From assembly GCA_003229375.1 (NCBI GenBank), contig QIDP01000181.1, positions 1 to 39,459 on the forward strand: 39,459 nt of DNA. Reading direction: 5' to 3'. Below, in pieces: positions 26,519 to 36,613 of the stretch (positions are counted from its first letter, which is position 1; every line of letters begins with the position of its first letter). Both the position numbers and the translations under genes were made by a program. The notes under the pieces were generated by a model that saw only the letters and a program-made list of their open reading frames with translations, searched no databases and had not been told where the DNA came from. This stretch comes from Nitrospirota bacterium (GTDB lineage Bacteria > Nitrospinota > Nitrospinia > SZUA-224).

Positions 26519-27562
26519 TTACCTCTTTTTCATCATCCTGTATTCATCAATTGCCTTCAGTACCTCATTAAGCACCTCTCTGGAATAGAGATTATTAACT
26601 AGTTTGTTCCTCACCTCCTCACCGGTCTTGAGGAATCTTTTCATCTCTATCTCATCCGGCACCGGTACCACCTTTATCCCCCTCTTTTTCATTATCTCTA
26701 TCGATTCATTGTTATCCTTACGGGTTAGGTCTATCAGTCTGACCATATGTCTGCTTACAGTCTCCTTTAATATCAACTGAAGATCCGCAGGCAACTTATC
26801 ATAGAATCTCTTAGTAATCAATATCCCGCCCATGGCATCTGCTATCGGCATGCCGGACATATATTTTACTTTAGTGAACCACTGCATGGCAATCGCCCCT
26901 AACGGCGATATATAGACAGTATCTATGAGCTTTGTCTGGAGCGAAAGGAGGACATCGGTCACAGAGAGGGGATGCGGGGTCAGATTAAAGGCATCAAACA
27001 TTGCCCTGGCAAGGGGGTCCCCCTGCCACATCCACATCTTAACATCCCGCATGTCATCTAGTGAGCGTATAGGTTTCCGGGAAAATATGTGGACAAAACC
27101 CACCTCGGCCCATCCTAACAATACATATCCCTTTTTTTCAAATGCTGTTGAGAACCTCTCATACAGTCTGTTACATACATGGTCTACCTCATCGTAATCC
27201 TTGAAGAGAAATGGGAGATCCATAATCCTGACCTCGGGGAGGATGGTGCCCAATCCAACCCCTGTAAATCCAGCGCTTTGAATCTGGCCTAACCGCATCT
27301 TTCTTATTACATCCTTTTCATCGCCCATTACTCCACCGGAATATATCTTGAATTTTAACCTTCCATTGCTCTTTTCCTGGATTTCCTTATTGAGATCATT
27401 CATGACATTCAGCCATGTAGTACCTTCCGGGGCCAGGGTAGCAAACTTGATCACAAACTTCTTATCCCCTGCCCCATATACTACTCCTGTATGCAGGAAT
27501 AAAAGACAGGATAAAGTTATAATAATCTTCTTCAATCTATTTCTCCTAAAAAAAGTCTTCAA
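26519..27562 (-). CDS. TRAP transporter periplasmic binding protein (DctP/TatP type)
   Basis: The 347-aa protein has a cleavable signal peptide (LKKIIITLSCLLFLHTGVVYG) and the DctP fold: IKFATLAPEGTTWLN (38-52), the GGVMGDEKDVIRKMRLGQI segment, LPFLF and KKGYVLLGWAEVGF. In most DctP proteins a KiRv motif supplies an Arg that grips the substrate carboxylate. Here the place is occupied by KMW (175-177), with Trp for Arg, and the following QxNP becomes ISP. This points to a non-carboxylate or hydrophobic ligand. It overlaps the TatT-like gene by 17 bases. Confidence 0.93.
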   Translation of the reverse strand: MKTFFRRNRLKKIIITLSCLLFLHTGVVYGAGDKKFVIKFATLAPEGTTWLNVMNDLNKEIQEKSNGRLKFKIYSGGVMGDEKDVIRKMRLGQIQSAGFTGVGLGTILPEVRIMDLPFLFKDYDEVDHVCNRLYERFSTAFEKKGYVLLGWAEVGFVHIFSRKPIRSLDDMRDVKMWMWQGDPLARAMFDAFNLTPHPLSVTDVLLSLQTKLIDTVYISPLGAIAMQWFTKVKYMSGMPIADAMGGILITKRFYDKLPADLQLILKETVSRHMVRLIDLTRKDNNESIEIMKKRGIKVVPVPDEIEMKRFLKTGEEVRNKLVNNLYSREVLNEVLKAIDEYRMMKKR

Positions 27563-28532
27563 CCCTCTCCAGCAGCCTCCTTGCCTTTGTCTTTGCTATC
27601 TCATTGGCAAGTCTCTGTTCTGGCAGTACACTACCGGGTGTGTCTATAACTTTATTTAACAGCTCCTCGAAAAACTCTCTGTCCTGTACCTGAACAGCAT
27701 AAAATCTGGCATAAAGGACATAGGTCATGAGAAACCTCCCACCGGTAATCTCGATACATATCTCAAAATGTGATCTTCCCTTTTCAGTATCCCCCCCCAG
27801 CATTCCTGGGCGTCCTGCATAATATGCCCCTAAAAAGAGGTGACTACCCCAATAATAATACCCCTCATTATAAGTTAATATCCTGTCCCTTTTCTTAGGG
27901 TGAGTGCTAAGATACTCTTTTAATTCCTGTAGAGATATACCATCTCCCGGTATTATTCCTTCATCTTGCAATAGCCGTTCTATTAGCTCTAGTACCCTAT
28001 TCATAAGGTACTCCACCTTTACAATATCAGCTATCGCCTCAGGGGAGTCCTTATTAAGATTGATCCAGCCGCTCCAGCTATAACCGGTCCAGAAAAGTGC
28101 AGGAATATCATCCCTGCCAAACCCCTTTAATGAATCCTTAAACCCCTCTGCACCTTTTTCCAATGCCTCAGAAAAATATTTGTCCTTTTTTAATATTCTG
28201 AGACCATAATCCCTTCCCCTGTTATAGAATATCTTTGCCCTCTCCGGATCACTCTCCTCTGCAAAACCGAATGCATAGCTGCTGAATCCCTGTGCAGCAA
28301 GGAGAAGTAGTTTCCTGTTATCCGGATCGCCCTTTATAAGCCCTTCCAGCATCTTCATGTTCGATAGTATTGCCTGTTCTGCCATAATCATGTCCTGCTC
28401 CTCATTTATGGCAGCAATACTGTCATCAAGGATCAAGGCGGTTGACCTGATAACCATCCTCTTCAGGCTGCAGCCGGCTATATTGACAATAAAAAGGGTT
28501 ATGCAAATTATCGAAAACGTTTTTAATAACAT
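27546..28532 (-). CDS. TatT-like TRAP-associated lipoprotein
   Basis: The 328-aa protein has a lipoprotein signal (IAGC, Cys21). Its helical sequence (ILSNMKMLEGLIKGDPDNRK, AAQGFSSYAFGFAEE, FYNRGRDYGLRIL) resembles TatT, the T component found with some TRAP systems, first described in Treponema pallidum (Tp0956). That protein is a trimer with TPR-like repeats that binds the P component. Direct overlap with the P gene supports the pairing. The family name is by motif memory plus context. Confidence 0.8.
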   Translation of the reverse strand: MLLKTFSIICITLFIVNIAGCSLKRMVIRSTALILDDSIAAINEEQDMIMAEQAILSNMKMLEGLIKGDPDNRKLLLLAAQGFSSYAFGFAEESDPERAKIFYNRGRDYGLRILKKDKYFSEALEKGAEGFKDSLKGFGRDDIPALFWTGYSWSGWINLNKDSPEAIADIVKVEYLMNRVLELIERLLQDEGIIPGDGISLQELKEYLSTHPKKRDRILTYNEGYYYWGSHLFLGAYYAGRPGMLGGDTEKGRSHFEICIEITGGRFLMTYVLYARFYAVQVQDREFFEELLNKVIDTPGSVLPEQRLANEIAKTKARRLLERVEDFF

Positions 28533-28595
28533 AATTCAGGGAATTATATTACCCTATAACTTCAGTACAAACAAGTTAAAATTGGTAATAAGGGC

Positions 28596-28991
28596 TTAAA
28601 ATCTTCTCGTGTGGATATTAATAGAGGAAGATATCTTCTTTTCGATATGGCGTCTTACCAATATCTTTATCCTTCTCCTGGATACAGGAAAAACAAGAAG
28701 AAAACCAATGATATCAGTAACAAAACCAGGGGTCACCAAAAGGGCACCTGCTACCAGGACCATGGCCCCGTCAATAAGTTCCTCGGCCGGGAAGATTCCC
28801 TCCCGCATGTTCCTCTGAAATCGGTAAACAACCCCGATCCCCTCTTTTCTTACCATGAATGACCCGACCACAGCGGTTCCTATAACCAGGGTTATGGTAT
28901 TTAATGTACCAATGACGGTACCGACTTTAATGAGAATAGCAAGTTCAATAACAGGAAGCAAAGTAAATAGCAAAAATAATCTGAAAAACAT
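28596..28991 (-). CDS. fxsA: FxsA family membrane protein
   Basis: The 131-aa protein starts at the ATG at 28991, 3 bases after AGAGGAA; a longer frame from 29057 would run through a repeat element and is rejected. FxsA is a small polytopic inner-membrane protein; in E. coli excess FxsA relieves exclusion of phage T7 by the F plasmid, its normal role is unclear. Visible features are MFFRLFLLFTLLPVIELAIL, VGTVIGTLNTITLVIGTAVVG, then ALLVTPGFVTDIIGFLLVFP with the family's conserved TPGF..D. It precedes the tatT-like gene by 63 bases, possibly in the same transcript. Confidence 0.9.
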   Translation of the reverse strand: MFFRLFLLFTLLPVIELAILIKVGTVIGTLNTITLVIGTAVVGSFMVRKEGIGVVYRFQRNMREGIFPAEELIDGAMVLVAGALLVTPGFVTDIIGFLLVFPVSRRRIKILVRRHIEKKISSSINIHTRRF

Positions 28992-29025
28992 CTTTCCTCT
29001 GAAAATCCTCACTGTTCCACAAGAG

Positions 29026-29100
29026 CACGGACAAACAAGTTTATCCATGCCACCCACCCATCGAGACTCATTTCAGCTATTCCCCAACCGCAGCACCGCA
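29026..29100. repeat. GGACAAAC-type repeat, long copy 3
   Basis: Palindrome GGACAAAC/GTTTATCC at 29029-29046 (one mismatch) with the same right flank as 19045-19120. It lies between the TPR gene and fxsA. I see no terminator in 29058-29134. Confidence 0.7.
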
Positions 29101-29134
29101 ACACCGCAGCACTGATTTTCATCTACAGCGAGCC

Positions 29135-30196
29135 CTATAAATTCTTTAAAACCTTAGTGAGGTTAGCACATCCCCGTTCAAGACCCATGTCACAGGCCTT
29201 TTGAAAATCAGAAAGCGCCTTTACCTTGTTATTCGACATAGCATAGGCAAGCCCCCGATTATTGTAGACCCCGGCATAGTCCGGGTTTATGGCAATAGCC
29301 TTATTATAATCCTCTATTGCCTTGTCGAGCTGTTCTTTTGTATGATAGGCATAATAGGCAAGCCCCCGATTGTTGTAGGCCTCGGCAAGATTCGGGTTAA
29401 CAGCAATGACCTTATTATAATCCTCTATTGCCTTTTCGAGCTGGCCCTTCGTATAATAAGCAACACCCCGGTTGCCATAGGTTTCTATATAATTCGGATC
29501 AATGGCAATAGCCTTATTATAATCCTCTATCGCCTTATCATATTGACCTTTACTATAATAAAAAATTCCGCGATTACCATAGGATTTAGCAAGCTTCAGG
29601 TTTATGGCAATACCCGGGGCAACGGCAATAACCTTATTATAATCCTTTATCGCCTTGTTGTATTGGCCTTTGTTATAATATATATTTCCCCGGCTGATAT
29701 AGGCCCTGGCATAAGTCGGGTTTATGACAATAGTTTTATTGTAACACTCTATCGCATTGTCAGGCTGGCCTTTCTTTTCATAGACAATCCCCTGATTGTA
29801 GTAGGCCCTGGCATAAGTCGGGTTTATGGTGATAGCCTTATGATAATCATCAATTGCCTTATCAAACCGGCCTTTTATATAATAAGCAGACCCTCTATTA
29901 TTGTAAGCCTCTGCATCATCAGGGTCTATTACAATAGCCCTATTATAGTCCTCAATTGCTATATCATATTGACCTTTATCATAATAGGCATTCCCGCGAT
30001 TGTAATAAGCTTCTGCCATATTAGGATTTACAGCAATTACCCGATTATAACTTTCAATAGCACTGTTGTATTCCCCCATTTTGTAATGATGGTTTCCCCT
30101 CTCTAACAACACCCTTACCCCTCTGCTTGTTACACATGCTATTGGCAATAACAGGAGTAGTACAGGTATCACCATACCTATTCTAAGACGCTTCAT
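29135..30196 (-). CDS. TPR-repeat lipoprotein
   Basis: From the ATG at 30196 the protein has 353 aa (a TTG two codons earlier is possible; GAGGTGG lies 10 bases before the ATG). A lipoprotein signal peptide ends at Cys21 (LLLLPIAC). The rest is nine tetratricopeptide repeats of 34 residues with the consensus NRGxAYYxKGQYDKAIEDYN and KAIAINPxYAEAY. The fifth and eighth are lengthened by 6 and 3 residues. TPR arrays bind other proteins, so this is probably an outer-membrane or periplasmic scaffold. Partner unknown. It diverges from the MoxR-like gene. Confidence 0.9.
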   Translation of the reverse strand: MKRLRIGMVIPVLLLLLPIACVTSRGVRVLLERGNHHYKMGEYNSAIESYNRVIAVNPNMAEAYYNRGNAYYDKGQYDIAIEDYNRAIVIDPDDAEAYNNRGSAYYIKGRFDKAIDDYHKAITINPTYARAYYNQGIVYEKKGQPDNAIECYNKTIVINPTYARAYISRGNIYYNKGQYNKAIKDYNKVIAVAPGIAINLKLAKSYGNRGIFYYSKGQYDKAIEDYNKAIAIDPNYIETYGNRGVAYYTKGQLEKAIEDYNKVIAVNPNLAEAYNNRGLAYYAYHTKEQLDKAIEDYNKAIAINPDYAGVYNNRGLAYAMSNNKVKALSDFQKACDMGLERGCANLTKVLKNL

Positions 30197-30307
30197 TAAC
30201 AAGATACCACCTCTCTATAATAATACACTTAATATTAGAAATTTATCACAATATTACCTGTTTCGCAACTTTTCTATTCACTCCTTTACAATCCCAATAT
30301 TAAAAAT

Positions 30308-30369: not shown

Positions 30370-31320
30370 ATGGAAAATAAAAAAGGGAAAAATGGTATTT
30401 TAGTTGAAGGGGTCCATTTGTATCTAAGTCATCCGGATACGAGTGAAGGGAGGTGGATCGGTCAGGGAGAGATATTAAAGCAACTTTTAGCCTGCTGGCT
30501 TGTTGTTGATGAAAAGGACCTGCCTCTTTCACCAAGGATAACCGGCATACCCGGGATAGGGAAAACAACCCTTGCAATGGCAGGCGCCCGTATAAGAAAA
30601 CAGCCGCTGTATATATTTCAATGCACGAGTGACACCAGACCGGAGGACCTTCTTATAACGCCGGTCCTTTCCGAGTCAGGGAAAATAGTCTATCATGCCT
30701 CTCCTCTTGTAAGTGCAATGCTTACAGATGGAATATGCGTCCTTGATGAAGGGAACAGGATGAATGAAAAGAGCTGGGCATCGCTTGCACCTCTTCTTGA
30801 CTATAGACGTTATGTCGAATCCATTGTGGCAGGAATTACCATACACGCCCATAAAGAATTCAGATGCTGCGTAACCATGAATGAAGACGAATCCACTTTT
30901 GAGATACCGGATTATATACTCTCCAGGATCCAGCCTACCCTCTCTATAGGGTTCCCAGGGAGAGAGGAAGAAAAGGCAATACTTCAGTATCATCTCCCAT
31001 TTGCAGAAGAGGAGATGCTTCAATTAATCGTAGGTTTTCTGCAAAAGTCGCACGAACTTAATCTGGACTTTTCTCCCAGGGATGGTATGCATGTACTTCA
31101 ATACGCATTGAAGCGACTGGCACAGGACTCTGATCATCCTTTGTCCCGTGATAAGATATGGAAAGAATCATTAAAAAATGTATTGGGAGATGAGGCGCTT
31201 GACCTTGAAAATCTTGCTGAAAAGAAGAAAAAGAGCATCGGGGAATACGATATCCCTCTCGGTTTAGGTGATTTTTTCTTTGAGGGTGACAATCCCCTTC
31301 ATCCTGATAAAGAGATATGA
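30370..31320 (+). CDS. MoxR-like AAA+ ATPase
   Basis: The 316-aa protein is an AAA+ ATPase of the MoxR/AAA_5 type, whose members act as chaperones that load or activate partner proteins. Walker A is GIPGIGKTT (59-67), Walker B is GICVLDEG (121-128, with Gly in place of the Ile-Asn of DEIN), sensor 1 is VTMNED (168-173) and the arginine-finger region is LSRIQP (184-189). It starts after AAGAGGATAAA. The last bases overlap the next gene as ATGA, so the two are co-translated and are likely to form one system. There is no VWA-domain gene next to it, the usual partner of MoxR proteins. Confidence 0.92.
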
Positions 31321-33167
31321 TGCCTGCTGAAACAACTCACTTTTTATCAATAAGTGACAAAATTAAAGTACTTCCCTTAATTCATGGCAGCGGGAATTTT
31401 GCTCAAGTTGTAAGACAAAAGATGCTAAACGAGTCCTTTGACTGCCTTGCAGTGTGTATCCCCCCCTCATTTAAGGAGTCAGTGGAACATGGAGTACGTC
31501 TTTTCCCGCAGATTACGTTAGCCGCTCTCGAAGAAGATGTATATCCCAAACCGGTATATAGCTACATTCCGATTGACCCATGTCAGCCCGTAATAATGGG
31601 GATAAGGATTGCCCTTGAGGAAAATATCCCGTGTGCATATATAGACAGGGAAGTCTCTAACTTTGAACCGCTACAGACAACATTACCGGATGCCTATGCA
31701 TTAAAAAAGGTATCTATAGAAAAATTCTCAGCAGCTATACTCCCGGCGATTCCCCCTCCTCAACAGGGAAGCCGGCAGGAAAAGAGAATACGGTGGATGT
31801 CTTTTCAACTGCATCTCCTGGAGCTTCAATTCAATAAAATACTCTTTTTATGTTCTGTTCTTGACTGGCCCTGGATAAGGGATTCTTATAATCAAAGGCT
31901 TCCATATGAAGACCATGAGATATTTACTCAAACACCCGGACTATATTCTGTCAAAGAAAATACCCTATATTTTGTACTCGGTGAACTTCCATATATCACC
32001 TATCTCTATGAGAAAAGACGGCAGGAATTGGCCTCTGATACATATCTTTCTATAGATGGAGTAAAGGAGATTATTATTGAGGCAAGAAATAGATGGATAA
32101 AAAAATATGATCTAAAGTACCACTCCCTTACCCTGCAGGTGCTTAATATCTATATGAAGTATGTAAGAAACCTGACACTTCTGGAAAGGAGAATGACGCC
32201 TGATATCTATACACTCGTCACTGCTGCAAAGCAGATAGGCGGTGACGGTTTTGCCATTTCATTAATGGAGACAGCCCGTGCATATCCTTACCAGAGAGAC
32301 AAAAATAATCTCCGGGAGGTTTTAATGGGTATTGGTCAGGGAGAGCTTCCTGAGAGTGGTGTGGTCCGGATGAAAAACAGATTATCCGGTCCTGCAATCT
32401 CATGGCGTACCCTTCATCTAAAACCAAAACCGGAGATTAAAAAACAGAAGTTATGGAAATTCCTCTGGGATCCCTTTGGACAGTGTTCGTGGCCGATTGA
32501 GGATCAGAAGATCGAAAGCTTTAATCTCCATGTACGGGAACAGGCAAAGGCCTTGATAGGAGCCGACCTCGTACGCACAGAAAAATTTACCACGTCGGTA
32601 AAGGATGGAATAGATATAAGGGATACCTTAAGGCACTGGTATGAAGGGGATATCTATGTGAAAGAGATCCCGCCTGCAAGAGGAAATGTAGAGGTTATCG
32701 TACTTATATTTGAGATAAACCCTGATCCTGAAAAATACAACTGGCAGCAAACCTGGTATGCAGAACACAAGGCTGAATCAACCCTATGTTTTTATGCTAC
32801 ACCATATCCGGATAATATGATAGGACCCGGGATTGCCGAGTCAACATATGGAGGACTCTTTTTATTGTTCCCCCCGCGATATATTGTAAATATTTGGCAG
32901 GACCCCCGCTTTGATTTTGCCAGGACCCTTGAAGAACGCCTCCTTGCCGCTGCATTGTTTTATTCCAAAGAAAGGCATGTTGCAGTTATATCCCCTAAAC
33001 ACCCTCCCCTGAGCTGGCGGAGGCTGGCCCGTCAATATAAAAAAAGTTTGGTGTATATCCCTTTACAACGGTTTTCCCTGCAAACAATAGAAAAAATCAG
33101 GAGGTTTCACATATTAAACGGAAAACATGTCCGCACATACGCAGCACATTTTATAAGTGATTTTTAA
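31317..33167 (+). CDS. 616-aa protein paired with the MoxR-like ATPase, unknown
   Basis: I do not recognise this protein with certainty. No signal peptide or membrane segment is visible, so it is probably cytoplasmic. The first ~200 residues ([18 protein letters not shown] at 18-35, [12 protein letters not shown] at 41-52, [18 protein letters not shown] at 96-113, then a helical [26 protein letters not shown]) have the pattern of TraB/TIKI-like proteins and perhaps of the DUF5682 proteins known beside MoxR ATPases. The C-terminal ~230 residues ([20 protein letters not shown], then [17 protein letters not shown] and [20 protein letters not shown]) form a separate domain that I cannot place. 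It starts within the stop of the ATPase gene (ATGA); a second ATG follows at once. Confidence 0.85.
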
Positions 33168-33362: not shown

Positions 33363-34370
<1,008 letters not shown>

Positions 34371-34395
34371 AGTTTCGATATGAAGGGGGTTCGGT

Positions 34396-35589
34396 ATGCA
34401 TAAGCTGACTATAGAAGATATCGATTTGAGAGGTAAGAGATGTCTTATCAGGGTAGATTTTAATGTCCCTTTTGATCAATATGGAAACATAACGGATGAC
34501 ACCCGTATTAAGGCCACGCTTCCAAGTATAAACTATGCTATTGATGAAGGGGCTAAGGTAATTCTCGCTTCTCACCTTGGACGACCCAATGGAAGAGTGG
34601 CTCCAAATATGAGTCTCAATCTGATATTAAAGAGATTACAGAGACTCCTTGACAAGAAGGTAAAGATGGCTGAGGATTGTATAGGTCCTGAGGTAAAAGA
34701 ACTTGTAGAGGAGATGGAAAATGGGGATGTCTTACTCCTGGAAAATCTGCGGTTTCATAAGGAGGAGACAGAAAACGATGATAGTTTTGCAAGAGAACTT
34801 GCAGGTTTGGCAGATATTTACATAAATGATGCCTTTGGGACAGCGCATAGGGCCCATGCCTCGACAGCCGGTATAGCCAAATACGTGCCGGTAGCCGCGG
34901 CCGGATTTCTACTGAAAAAGGAGATAGATTACTTCAACAGGTCGGTATCAGATCCAATGAGACCCTTTGTAGCAATATTAGGTGGTTCCAAGGCATCCGG
35001 GAAGATAGGGGTTATAAAGAATCTTGAGGAAAAAGTAGATAAGGTAATCCTGGGAGGAGGACTTGCATGTACGTTCTTGAAGGCACTTGGCAATGATGTC
35101 GGTGCATCCTTTGTTGAAGATACCATGCTGGATGAGGTGCCCGAGATTATGAAAAAGGCAAAGGAGAAAGGGGTAAAATTTTATCTCCCGGTAGACTTTG
35201 TAGTTGCAGAGAGGTGCGATGCAAGGGCACAAAGCAAGGTGGTTCCAGCCCAGGAAATACCCTCTGACTGGGTGGCCCTGGATATTGGACCCGCAACCAC
35301 TACATTATTTTCAGAGGTCCTTCATGATGCAAAGACAATCATCTGGAATGGCCCTATGGGGGTATTTGAATTGGATGCCTTTAGCAGGGGGACATTCGCC
35401 ATGGTTCATGCAGTGTCAAACTCATATGCATTGACGATCGTAGGTGGAGGAGATACAGATGTAGCGGTCCACAGAGCAGGTGAATCTGATAAGATCTCCT
35501 ATATCTCTACTGGCGGAGGGGCATTTATTCAGCTTTTAGAAGGGAAGAAGATGCCTGGAGTAGAGGCACTGACCGATAAGAAGGAATAG
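34396..35589 (+). CDS. pgk: Phosphoglycerate kinase
   Basis: Pgk transfers the acyl phosphate of 1,3-bisphosphoglycerate to ADP. The 397-aa chain has RVDFNVPFD (19-27), SHLGRPNG, ENLRFHKEE, the hinge segment around VAILGGSKASGKIGV, GGGLACTFL, and the nucleotide-binding C-terminal IWNGPMGVFE and VGGGDTDVAVHRAG. The start follows GAAGGGGG. A 231-bp inverted-repeat element separates it from tpiA. Confidence 0.98.
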   Translation: MHKLTIEDIDLRGKRCLIRVDFNVPFDQYGNITDDTRIKATLPSINYAIDEGAKVILASHLGRPNGRVAPNMSLNLILKRLQRLLDKKVKMAEDCIGPEVKELVEEMENGDVLLLENLRFHKEETENDDSFARELAGLADIYINDAFGTAHRAHASTAGIAKYVPVAAAGFLLKKEIDYFNRSVSDPMRPFVAILGGSKASGKIGVIKNLEEKVDKVILGGGLACTFLKALGNDVGASFVEDTMLDEVPEIMKKAKEKGVKFYLPVDFVVAERCDARAQSKVVPAQEIPSDWVALDIGPATTTLFSEVLHDAKTIIWNGPMGVFELDAFSRGTFAMVHAVSNSYALTIVGGGDTDVAVHRAGESDKISYISTGGGAFIQLLEGKKMPGVEALTDKKE

Positions 35590-35598
35590 GTATAATTC

Positions 35599-35829
35599 AC
35601 CACAGAGGTCACAGAGAAAAATAAACTGTAAGCGTTCACAGAACACTGAAATTTGAAATTTGAAATTTGAAAAAAATCAAAATACCAAATAGTAATTGAA
35701 AAACTTGGTCCAAAGTTGAATGCGTTTATCAACAGCACAAAAATATGATAACACAAATTTCCAACACAAATTTCCAATTTCCAATTTCAAACCGTGAACG
35801 GTTACAATAAACTCTGTGTTCTCTGTGGT
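35599..35829. repeat. 231-bp inverted-repeat element between pgk and tpiA
   Basis: The ends ACCACAGAG...CTCTGTGGT begin terminal inverted repeats of roughly 36-41 bases that also share CACAGAG, ATAAACTGTAA/TTGTAAC and CGTTCAC. Inside lie GAAATTT triplicates and their inverted counterpart CCAATTTCCAATTTC, giving a nested stem. No coding potential. Confidence 0.75.
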
Positions 35830-35851
35830 TAATAGGTGTAGGTAATTAAAT

Positions 35852-36613
35852 ATGAATCGTAAGAGAATAATCGCTGGTAACTGGAAGATGAATAAAGTAA
35901 TTGAAGAGTCTCTATCTCTTGTCAATGAGTTAAAAGAGGCTGTTCAGGGGATAAATGATAGTATAGAAATAGTAGTAAGCCCGCCCTTTACCACGTTAAG
36001 TGTTATTAATGATATTATTAAAGGGAGCAATATCCTCCTTGCGGCACAAGACGTATTTTGGGAAGATAAAGGGGCATATACTGGAGAAATTTCTCCGGTG
36101 ATGTTAAAAGATGTTGGTTGTAAATATACAATAATAGGTCATTCTGAACGGAGGCAGTATTTTAACGAGACCAATGAGACGGTCAACAAAAAGATAAAGG
36201 CGGTACTAAAAAATGATCTGTCTGTTATAGTATGTGTAGGGGAAACCCTGGAAGAGAGAGAAAATGAAACGACATTTTCTGTGATAGGAACACAGATTAG
36301 AGATGGTCTTAACGGGTTGGGTCAAAAGGATATGGAACAGGTTGTTATAGCATATGAACCTGTCTGGGCAATCGGTACAGGGAAGACAGCTACTCCGTCC
36401 CAGGCAAATGAGGTGCATATATTTATAAGAGATACCATAAAAGAGATGTTTGGAGATGAAATAGCCTCTTCCATTACGATCCAGTATGGGGGGAGTGTTA
36501 ACCCTTCAAACATAACAGAACTGATGTCTGAATCCGATATTGATGGGGCCCTTGTTGGCGGCGCCAGTCTTGATTCAGGATCTTTTATACAGATTATAAG
36601 AGGAGCATTATAA
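35852..36613 (+). CDS. tpiA: Triosephosphate isomerase
   Basis: TpiA interconverts dihydroxyacetone phosphate and glyceraldehyde-3-phosphate. The 253-aa TIM barrel has Lys12 in GNWKMN, His97 in IIGHSERR, the catalytic Glu169 in AYEPVWAIGTG, and the phosphate-binding YGGSVNPSN and GALVGGASL. It is followed directly by secG, whose GTG begins two bases after the stop. Confidence 0.98.
   Translation: MNRKRIIAGNWKMNKVIEESLSLVNELKEAVQGINDSIEIVVSPPFTTLSVINDIIKGSNILLAAQDVFWEDKGAYTGEISPVMLKDVGCKYTIIGHSERRQYFNETNETVNKKIKAVLKNDLSVIVCVGETLEERENETTFSVIGTQIRDGLNGLGQKDMEQVVIAYEPVWAIGTGKTATPSQANEVHIFIRDTIKEMFGDEIASSITIQYGGSVNPSNITELMSESDIDGALVGGASLDSGSFIQIIRGAL

Follow-up and report, generated by a model that had tools for sequence, protein, structure and literature searches.

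A conserved gene pair of a MoxR-type ATPase and a TIKI-fold partner, distantly parallel to yehL-yehM, in Nitrospinota and other bacteria

MoxR ATPases are understood through their partners with VWA domains. The nearest known arrangement to the one described here is yehL-yehM-yehP-yehQ of Escherichia coli, encoding MoxR, DUF5682, VWA and SWIM proteins, respectively, together with its DUF5691-bearing relatives. In MoxR-VWA couples, such as NorQ-NorD and CbbQ-CbbO, a MoxR ATPase of a single module is paired with a partner of its own; for NorQ-NorD, it has been described how the VWA domain inserts a finger into the pore of the hexamer and how a client is remodelled as the motor twists the partner (PMC9976466, PMC13036017). 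A finger-in-pore arrangement with a partner lacking VWA is found in McrBC (PMC13036017). Here, we analysed a stretch of DNA of 39,459 nucleotides (hereafter, the window), which is contig QIDP01000181.1 (C8) of a 2.56 Mb assembly whose closest named relatives are metagenome-assembled genomes (MAGs) of Nitrospinota, and focused on two of its genes, P1, coding for an AAA+ ATPase, and P2, coding for a 616-aa partner. We propose, at a probability of roughly 60%, that P1 and P2 constitute a single two-protein AAA+ machine for remodelling, of ancient origin and inherited mostly vertically, distantly parallel to yehL-yehM.

Like yehLMPQ, the pair starts with a MoxR gene followed by a gene with a profile-homologous N-terminal domain, but it comes without a VWA, SWIM or DUF5691 gene. 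Because P2 stays below the DUF5682 cut-off, VWA and SWIM are absent, and P1 belongs to a clade separate from YehL, we rate the pair as a variant of the yehLMPQ type. It also resembles NorQ-NorD and CbbQ-CbbO in the one-to-one pairing of ATPase and partner but differs from them in that P2 has no recognisable VWA or metal-ion-dependent adhesion site. With McrB-McrC, the pair would share an AAA+ ring and a partner devoid of VWA; there is no sequence relation and no nuclease was seen in the pair, so this is an analogy only.

The coupling of the two genes is widely conserved. In the species genomes of GTDB, 533 P2 loci were confirmed by scanning, among the carriers of the pair being Nitrospira defluvii (L103) and Singulisphaera acidiphila DSM 18658 (L129), and the best 80 loci, fetched for neighbourhood analysis, come from Nitrospinota, Nitrospirota, Planctomycetota, Latescibacterota and a few other bins. 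P1 adjoins P2 in 75 of these 80 loci; among the other five, P2 lies at a contig edge in three (L062, L064 and L093), and two (L060 and L061) represent a family with unlinked genes. Within the class of the window, P2 is present in 47 of 60 relatives (up to 67% identity over its full length), nine P2-negative genomes also lack P1, and in one family (f6) both genes are present but unlinked. Across 353 genomes of Planctomycetota and Nitrospirota, 59 encode both proteins, one P1 only, none P2 only, and 293 neither (Fisher p 7e-67 for the pooled set, a value that ignores shared ancestry and so overstates independence). In the 158 nitrospirotal genomes, the carriers of P2 are exactly those of P1 (23 with both, 135 with neither), whereas the 195 planctomycete genomes comprise 36 with both, one with P1 only, none with P2 only and 158 with neither. 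Of the 36 planctomycete carriers, 20 have the two genes in non-adjacent positions, at 0.2-4.6 Mb from each other on one contig in 12 and on different contigs in 8, and therefore the co-occurrence does not rest on linkage. The P2 tree requires 5 changes of phylum against a possible minimum of 4. Neochlamydia sp. S13 likewise has an adjacent pair, located on a plasmid, with identities of 54% for the ATPase and 28% for the partner. A 435-aa open reading frame (ORF; L161, 6149-7453) separates P1 from P2 in one genome of a planctomycete (G160). Natural fusions of P1 and P2 were sought as well; the long candidate ORFs in L118, L130 and L135 hold the two genes in different frames and were discarded.

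P1 is, judging by its sequence, a MoxR-type AAA+ ATPase. The Walker A, Walker B, sensor and arginine-finger motifs that the first-pass annotation had called complete were all found, including both sensors, and the residues central to them do not vary across the family alignment (A2); in Pfam, AAA_5 (59.9 bits, cut-off 22; E 3.6e-16) and AAA_3 (30.3 bits, cut-off 27) both exceed their thresholds. The nearest solved relatives in a PDB sequence search are CbbQ, NorQ and midasin, and P1 can be aligned to CbbQ and NorQ, at the level of sequence only, across the region of the helix-2 insert. In the tree, P1 forms a well-supported clade of its own beside YehL rather than within it, although the joining branches are long and their order uncertain.

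Searches of Pfam, NCBIfam and PADLOC gave no match to P2 above cut-off, and the PDB gave no sequence relative; the AlphaFold model of P2 (mean pLDDT 84.9) divides into three domains. For residues 4-196 of the model, VIA structure comparison, in which the top two rows are chains of Tetrahymena complex IV (Z 10.6 and 9.4), matched ChaN (2g5g; Z 8.0, 4.0 Å, 137 aligned residues) and HopBA1 (5t09; Z 6.9), both of which are listed as members of the TIKI superfamily (PMC6254334). Because the ChaN score is modest, the assignment relies on the comparison of profiles: over P2 residues 15-195, those of P2 and DUF5682 (YehM) align with an hhalign probability of 94.8% (E 5.3e-8), a smaller alignment of P2 reaching 91.9% over residues 13-311, whereas unrelated profiles remain below 1% against P2. 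PF18934 (DUF5682) itself does not match P2 above its gathering threshold in Pfam (best E 0.028, for 2 of the 23 members compared). Read jointly, the VIA and hhalign matches indicate that the N-terminus of P2 has a TIKI/ChaN/TraB-type fold and is homologous to DUF5682. The TraB/TIKI-like N-terminus and the DUF5682 link that the first-pass annotation had put forward are thus upheld; adjacency is conserved in relatives, and no confident match of P2 to an unrelated characterised family emerged. That annotation had also raised the possibility of a reduced version of a known module, which is only loosely right: the P1 clade lies beside, not inside, YehL, and no sign of former VWA and SWIM partners was detected in the lineage.

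The name DUF5682 was not found in the literature searched. Among the 195 planctomycete genomes, DUF5682 and P2 share 7, an overlap that is not significant (p 0.14). In E. coli and Iodobacter, genes for DUF4132 proteins lie just 5′ of yehL-type genes (L143, 1-828; L144, 1-1333), and DUF4132 may also belong to the DUF5682 operon.

TIKI enzymes use an active site of two His and two Glu residues (PMC6254334). By our reading of the DUF5682 alignment, P2 positions 23, 47 and 183 are the counterparts of H11, E35 and H202 in YehM. P2 shares with the TIKI/TraB/ChaN/Ere superfamily (ChaN, HopBA1, RRSP) the fold of residues 4-196 and these motif positions; unlike the active TIKI/ChaN enzymes, P2 of the window has C47 and D183 in place of the catalytic Glu and the second His, and unlike the superfamily at large, it is fused to additional domains and tied to a MoxR ATPase. 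The two positions change in a coordinated manner: E47 and H183 are kept together in all 8 deep-branching members, including that of Neochlamydia, and the 64 other members, including that of the window, differ at both, with no sequence changed at one alone. The latter form a main clade set off in the P2 tree by a branch with 100/99 support. Given the reliance of TIKI enzymes on their His/Glu site (PMC6254334), the simplest reading is that catalysis was lost or changed on the branch leading to the main clade. For P2 and DUF5682 alike, enzyme activity is a prediction, and the TIKI domain of the window type, with the predicted catalytic Glu and second His replaced, probably only binds. Alternatively, this domain could be an active hydrolase across the family, with D183 and other residues substituting and P1 gating access of the substrate. 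Indeed, H23, D110, D125 and R157 are invariant even in the main clade, and the near fixation of D183 (63 of 64 main-clade members) suggests a remaining role. However, position 47 readily accommodates any of P, A, C, S and G, as that of a catalytic residue would not, and the superfamily includes PMT, a member with neither the motif nor the activity (PMC6254334). We consider family-wide hydrolysis unlikely.

The large, separate C-terminal domain that had been noted at first sight is evident in the model as an alpha/beta unit and is the most conserved part of P2, with 35 invariant columns among the 231 of residues 386-616 compared with 11 of 184 in the TIKI domain. No PDB structural match to it exceeds Z 4.5, and Foldseek returned nothing under E 0.001 for full-length P2 or for the C-terminal part; rows resembling RNase H-like or creatinase N-domain arrangements (Z ≤4.5) were not taken as evidence, and a below-cut-off match of P2 to GH125 (E 0.002, 1 of 23 members) was set aside as chance. 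Conceivably, this domain is a cryptic VWA without the metal site, in which case the pair would be an ordinary MoxR-VWA couple, comparable to the DUF5682-VWA fusions of Singulisphaera and Streptomyces. Such fusions do exist and, by eye, one stretch of P2 ('[34 protein letters not shown]') resembles the part of YehP that precedes the first VWA strand, exactly where the best local VWA match of hhalign falls. Yet that match has a probability of 0.24%, none of the 23 P2 members has a Pfam VWA match, and a second look at the structure returned creatinase N-domains, integrases and argonautes as its best, weak rows (Z ≤4.5) and no VWA, which rows of this kind do not preclude. We regard a hidden VWA as somewhat less probable still than a family-wide hydrolase.

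As the first-pass annotation had stated, no VWA gene is found beside the pair in the window, and the genome encodes no VWA_CoxE protein above cut-off. Clustering of neighbours in the fetched loci revealed no third gene conserved across phyla; the candidates (ligA/trp in Nitrospira; MurJ, HAD and M32 in Nitrospinota) reflect lineage-specific synteny, and the unlinked planctomycete copies have little in common nearby beyond a few recurrent kinase-like and secreted-protein-like ORFs. The pair is single-copy per genome, its tree largely tracks phyla, and P2 is missing from the viral and phage collections searched; on these grounds, and given the lack of a third gene, we argue for a chromosomal housekeeping role. 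It is very improbable that the pair is a regulated MoxR-type module for conflict or anti-phage defence, as had initially been entertained: such systems are known, including in Planctomycetes (PMC7159879), and the Neochlamydia pair is plasmid-borne, but in contrast to VMAP and other MoxR-centred conflict systems the pair has no VWA, conserved third gene or variable effector, it yields no PADLOC match, and its neighbours are housekeeping genes.

Beyond the P1 motifs and the domain layout, the mechanism that we envisage for the remodelling machine is inferred throughout. P1 is expected to form a hexameric ring, which the C-terminal domain of P2, perhaps together with the middle domain, would engage in place of a VWA domain; ATP hydrolysis by P1 would then move P2, and P2 would remodel a client bound to its TIKI-fold domain. 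This domain may still hydrolyse the client in the deep-branching form, whereas in the main clade, including the window, it would probably only bind it. The middle helical domain resembles the C-terminal lid of AAA+ proteins, residues 246-322 matching the ATPase subunit of Mg-chelatase (VIA Z 7.4, 1.8 Å over 68 residues).

Several points weigh against the proposal of a two-protein machine. A physical complex of P1 and P2, like the stoichiometry of the ring and the housekeeping client, is something that we infer, and the docking role of the P2 C-terminus, a domain whose fold has no confident match, is conjecture. The ChaN score of Z 8.0 is at the edge of the range reached by unrelated models. 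The likeness of the middle domain to a lid is structural only: small-window sequence comparisons with MoxR, YehL, P1 and DUF5682 found nothing significant, and lid homology by sequence was accordingly dropped. Finally, one genome among the 353 (G174; C1:213938-214870) has P1 alone, where P2 could have diverged or be missing, and two MAGs (G011 and G015) each show a single gene, possibly owing to incompleteness.

Both genes are intact ORFs, located as listed in Table 1.

Table 1. Coordinates in the window of the P1-P2 pair and its predicted domains and motifs
Feature	Coordinates	Strand	Basis or conservation
P1, MoxR/AAA_5-type AAA+ ATPase, 316 aa	30370..31320	+	ORF; Pfam; PDB relatives
Walker A, P1 residues 59-67, [10 protein letters not shown]	30544..30570	+	key residues invariant
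Walker B, P1 residues 122-127, ICVLDE	30733..30750	+	D126 and E127 invariant
Sensor 1, P1 N171	30880..30882	+	invariant
Arginine finger, P1 R186	30925..30927	+	invariant
Sensor 2, P1 R237	31078..31080	+	invariant
P2, 616-aa partner	31317..33167	+	ORF; 533 loci confirmed in GTDB species genomes
P2 N-terminal TIKI/ChaN/DUF5682-like domain, residues 13-196	31353..31904	+	AlphaFold model, VIA, hhalign
H23, retained first His of TIKI-type motif	31383..31385	+	invariant in 23 diverse members
C47, at the superfamily's catalytic Glu position	31455..31457	+	Glu in the 8 deep-branching members; C, P, A, S or G in the other 64
D183, at the superfamily's second His position	31863..31865	+	His in those 8 members; in the other 64, Asp (63) or Glu (1)
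P2 middle helical domain, residues 246-322, AAA+ C-terminal lid-like	32052..32282	+	VIA
P2 C-terminal alpha/beta domain, residues 386-616, with the highest conservation in P2	32472..33164	+	conservation; model pLDDT 78.7

The stop codon of P1 and the start codon of P2 overlap as ATGA (31317-31320), and the pair stands between unrelated units, both as first annotated; AGAGGA, a sequence resembling a ribosome-binding site, lies a few bases 5′ of the P1 start. The promoter of its own ascribed to the pair was not substantiated: the best promoter-like site (30196-30224, matching at 10 of 12 positions) overlaps the 5′ end of the divergent upstream gene, and such sites are not commoner in the region than expected by chance (7 versus 8.5 in shuffled sequences). 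That upstream gene encodes a TPR lipoprotein whose repeats, about nine in number, closely resemble one another, and a 301-aa ORF antisense to it is probably an artefact of these repeats; on the minus strand at 26519-30202, genes for TRAP-transporter DctP and T-component (TAtT) proteins are followed by those for FxsA and the TPR lipoprotein. Directly 3′ of the pair, on the plus strand, is the unrelated glycolytic cluster gap-pgk-tpiA (33363-36613). In other genomes, short, stop-containing copies of the C-terminal end of P2 (L023, 3709-3858, that is, G059:C56:164075-164263; and G049:C438:4057-4263), one of them just 3′ of the intact gene, appear to be decayed partial duplicates.

In the collections searched, no function is recorded for the P1 and P2 genes, whose carriers include nitrite oxidisers and planctomycetes. 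More tentatively than the remodelling machine as such, the pair may be the founding example of a VWA-less MoxR machine. In such a machine, the ring would be coupled through a new C-terminal docking domain to the TIKI-fold domain, an active hydrolase in the deep clade and a binding-only pseudo-enzyme in the main clade, and a conserved housekeeping client would be served in Nitrospinota, Nitrospirota, Planctomycetota and others. The joint loss of Glu and His on a single branch represents a natural switch from a likely enzyme to a likely binder, with two living clades available for comparison. With its near-perfect co-occurrence even when the genes are unlinked, the pair is a clean system in which to ask what replaces VWA.
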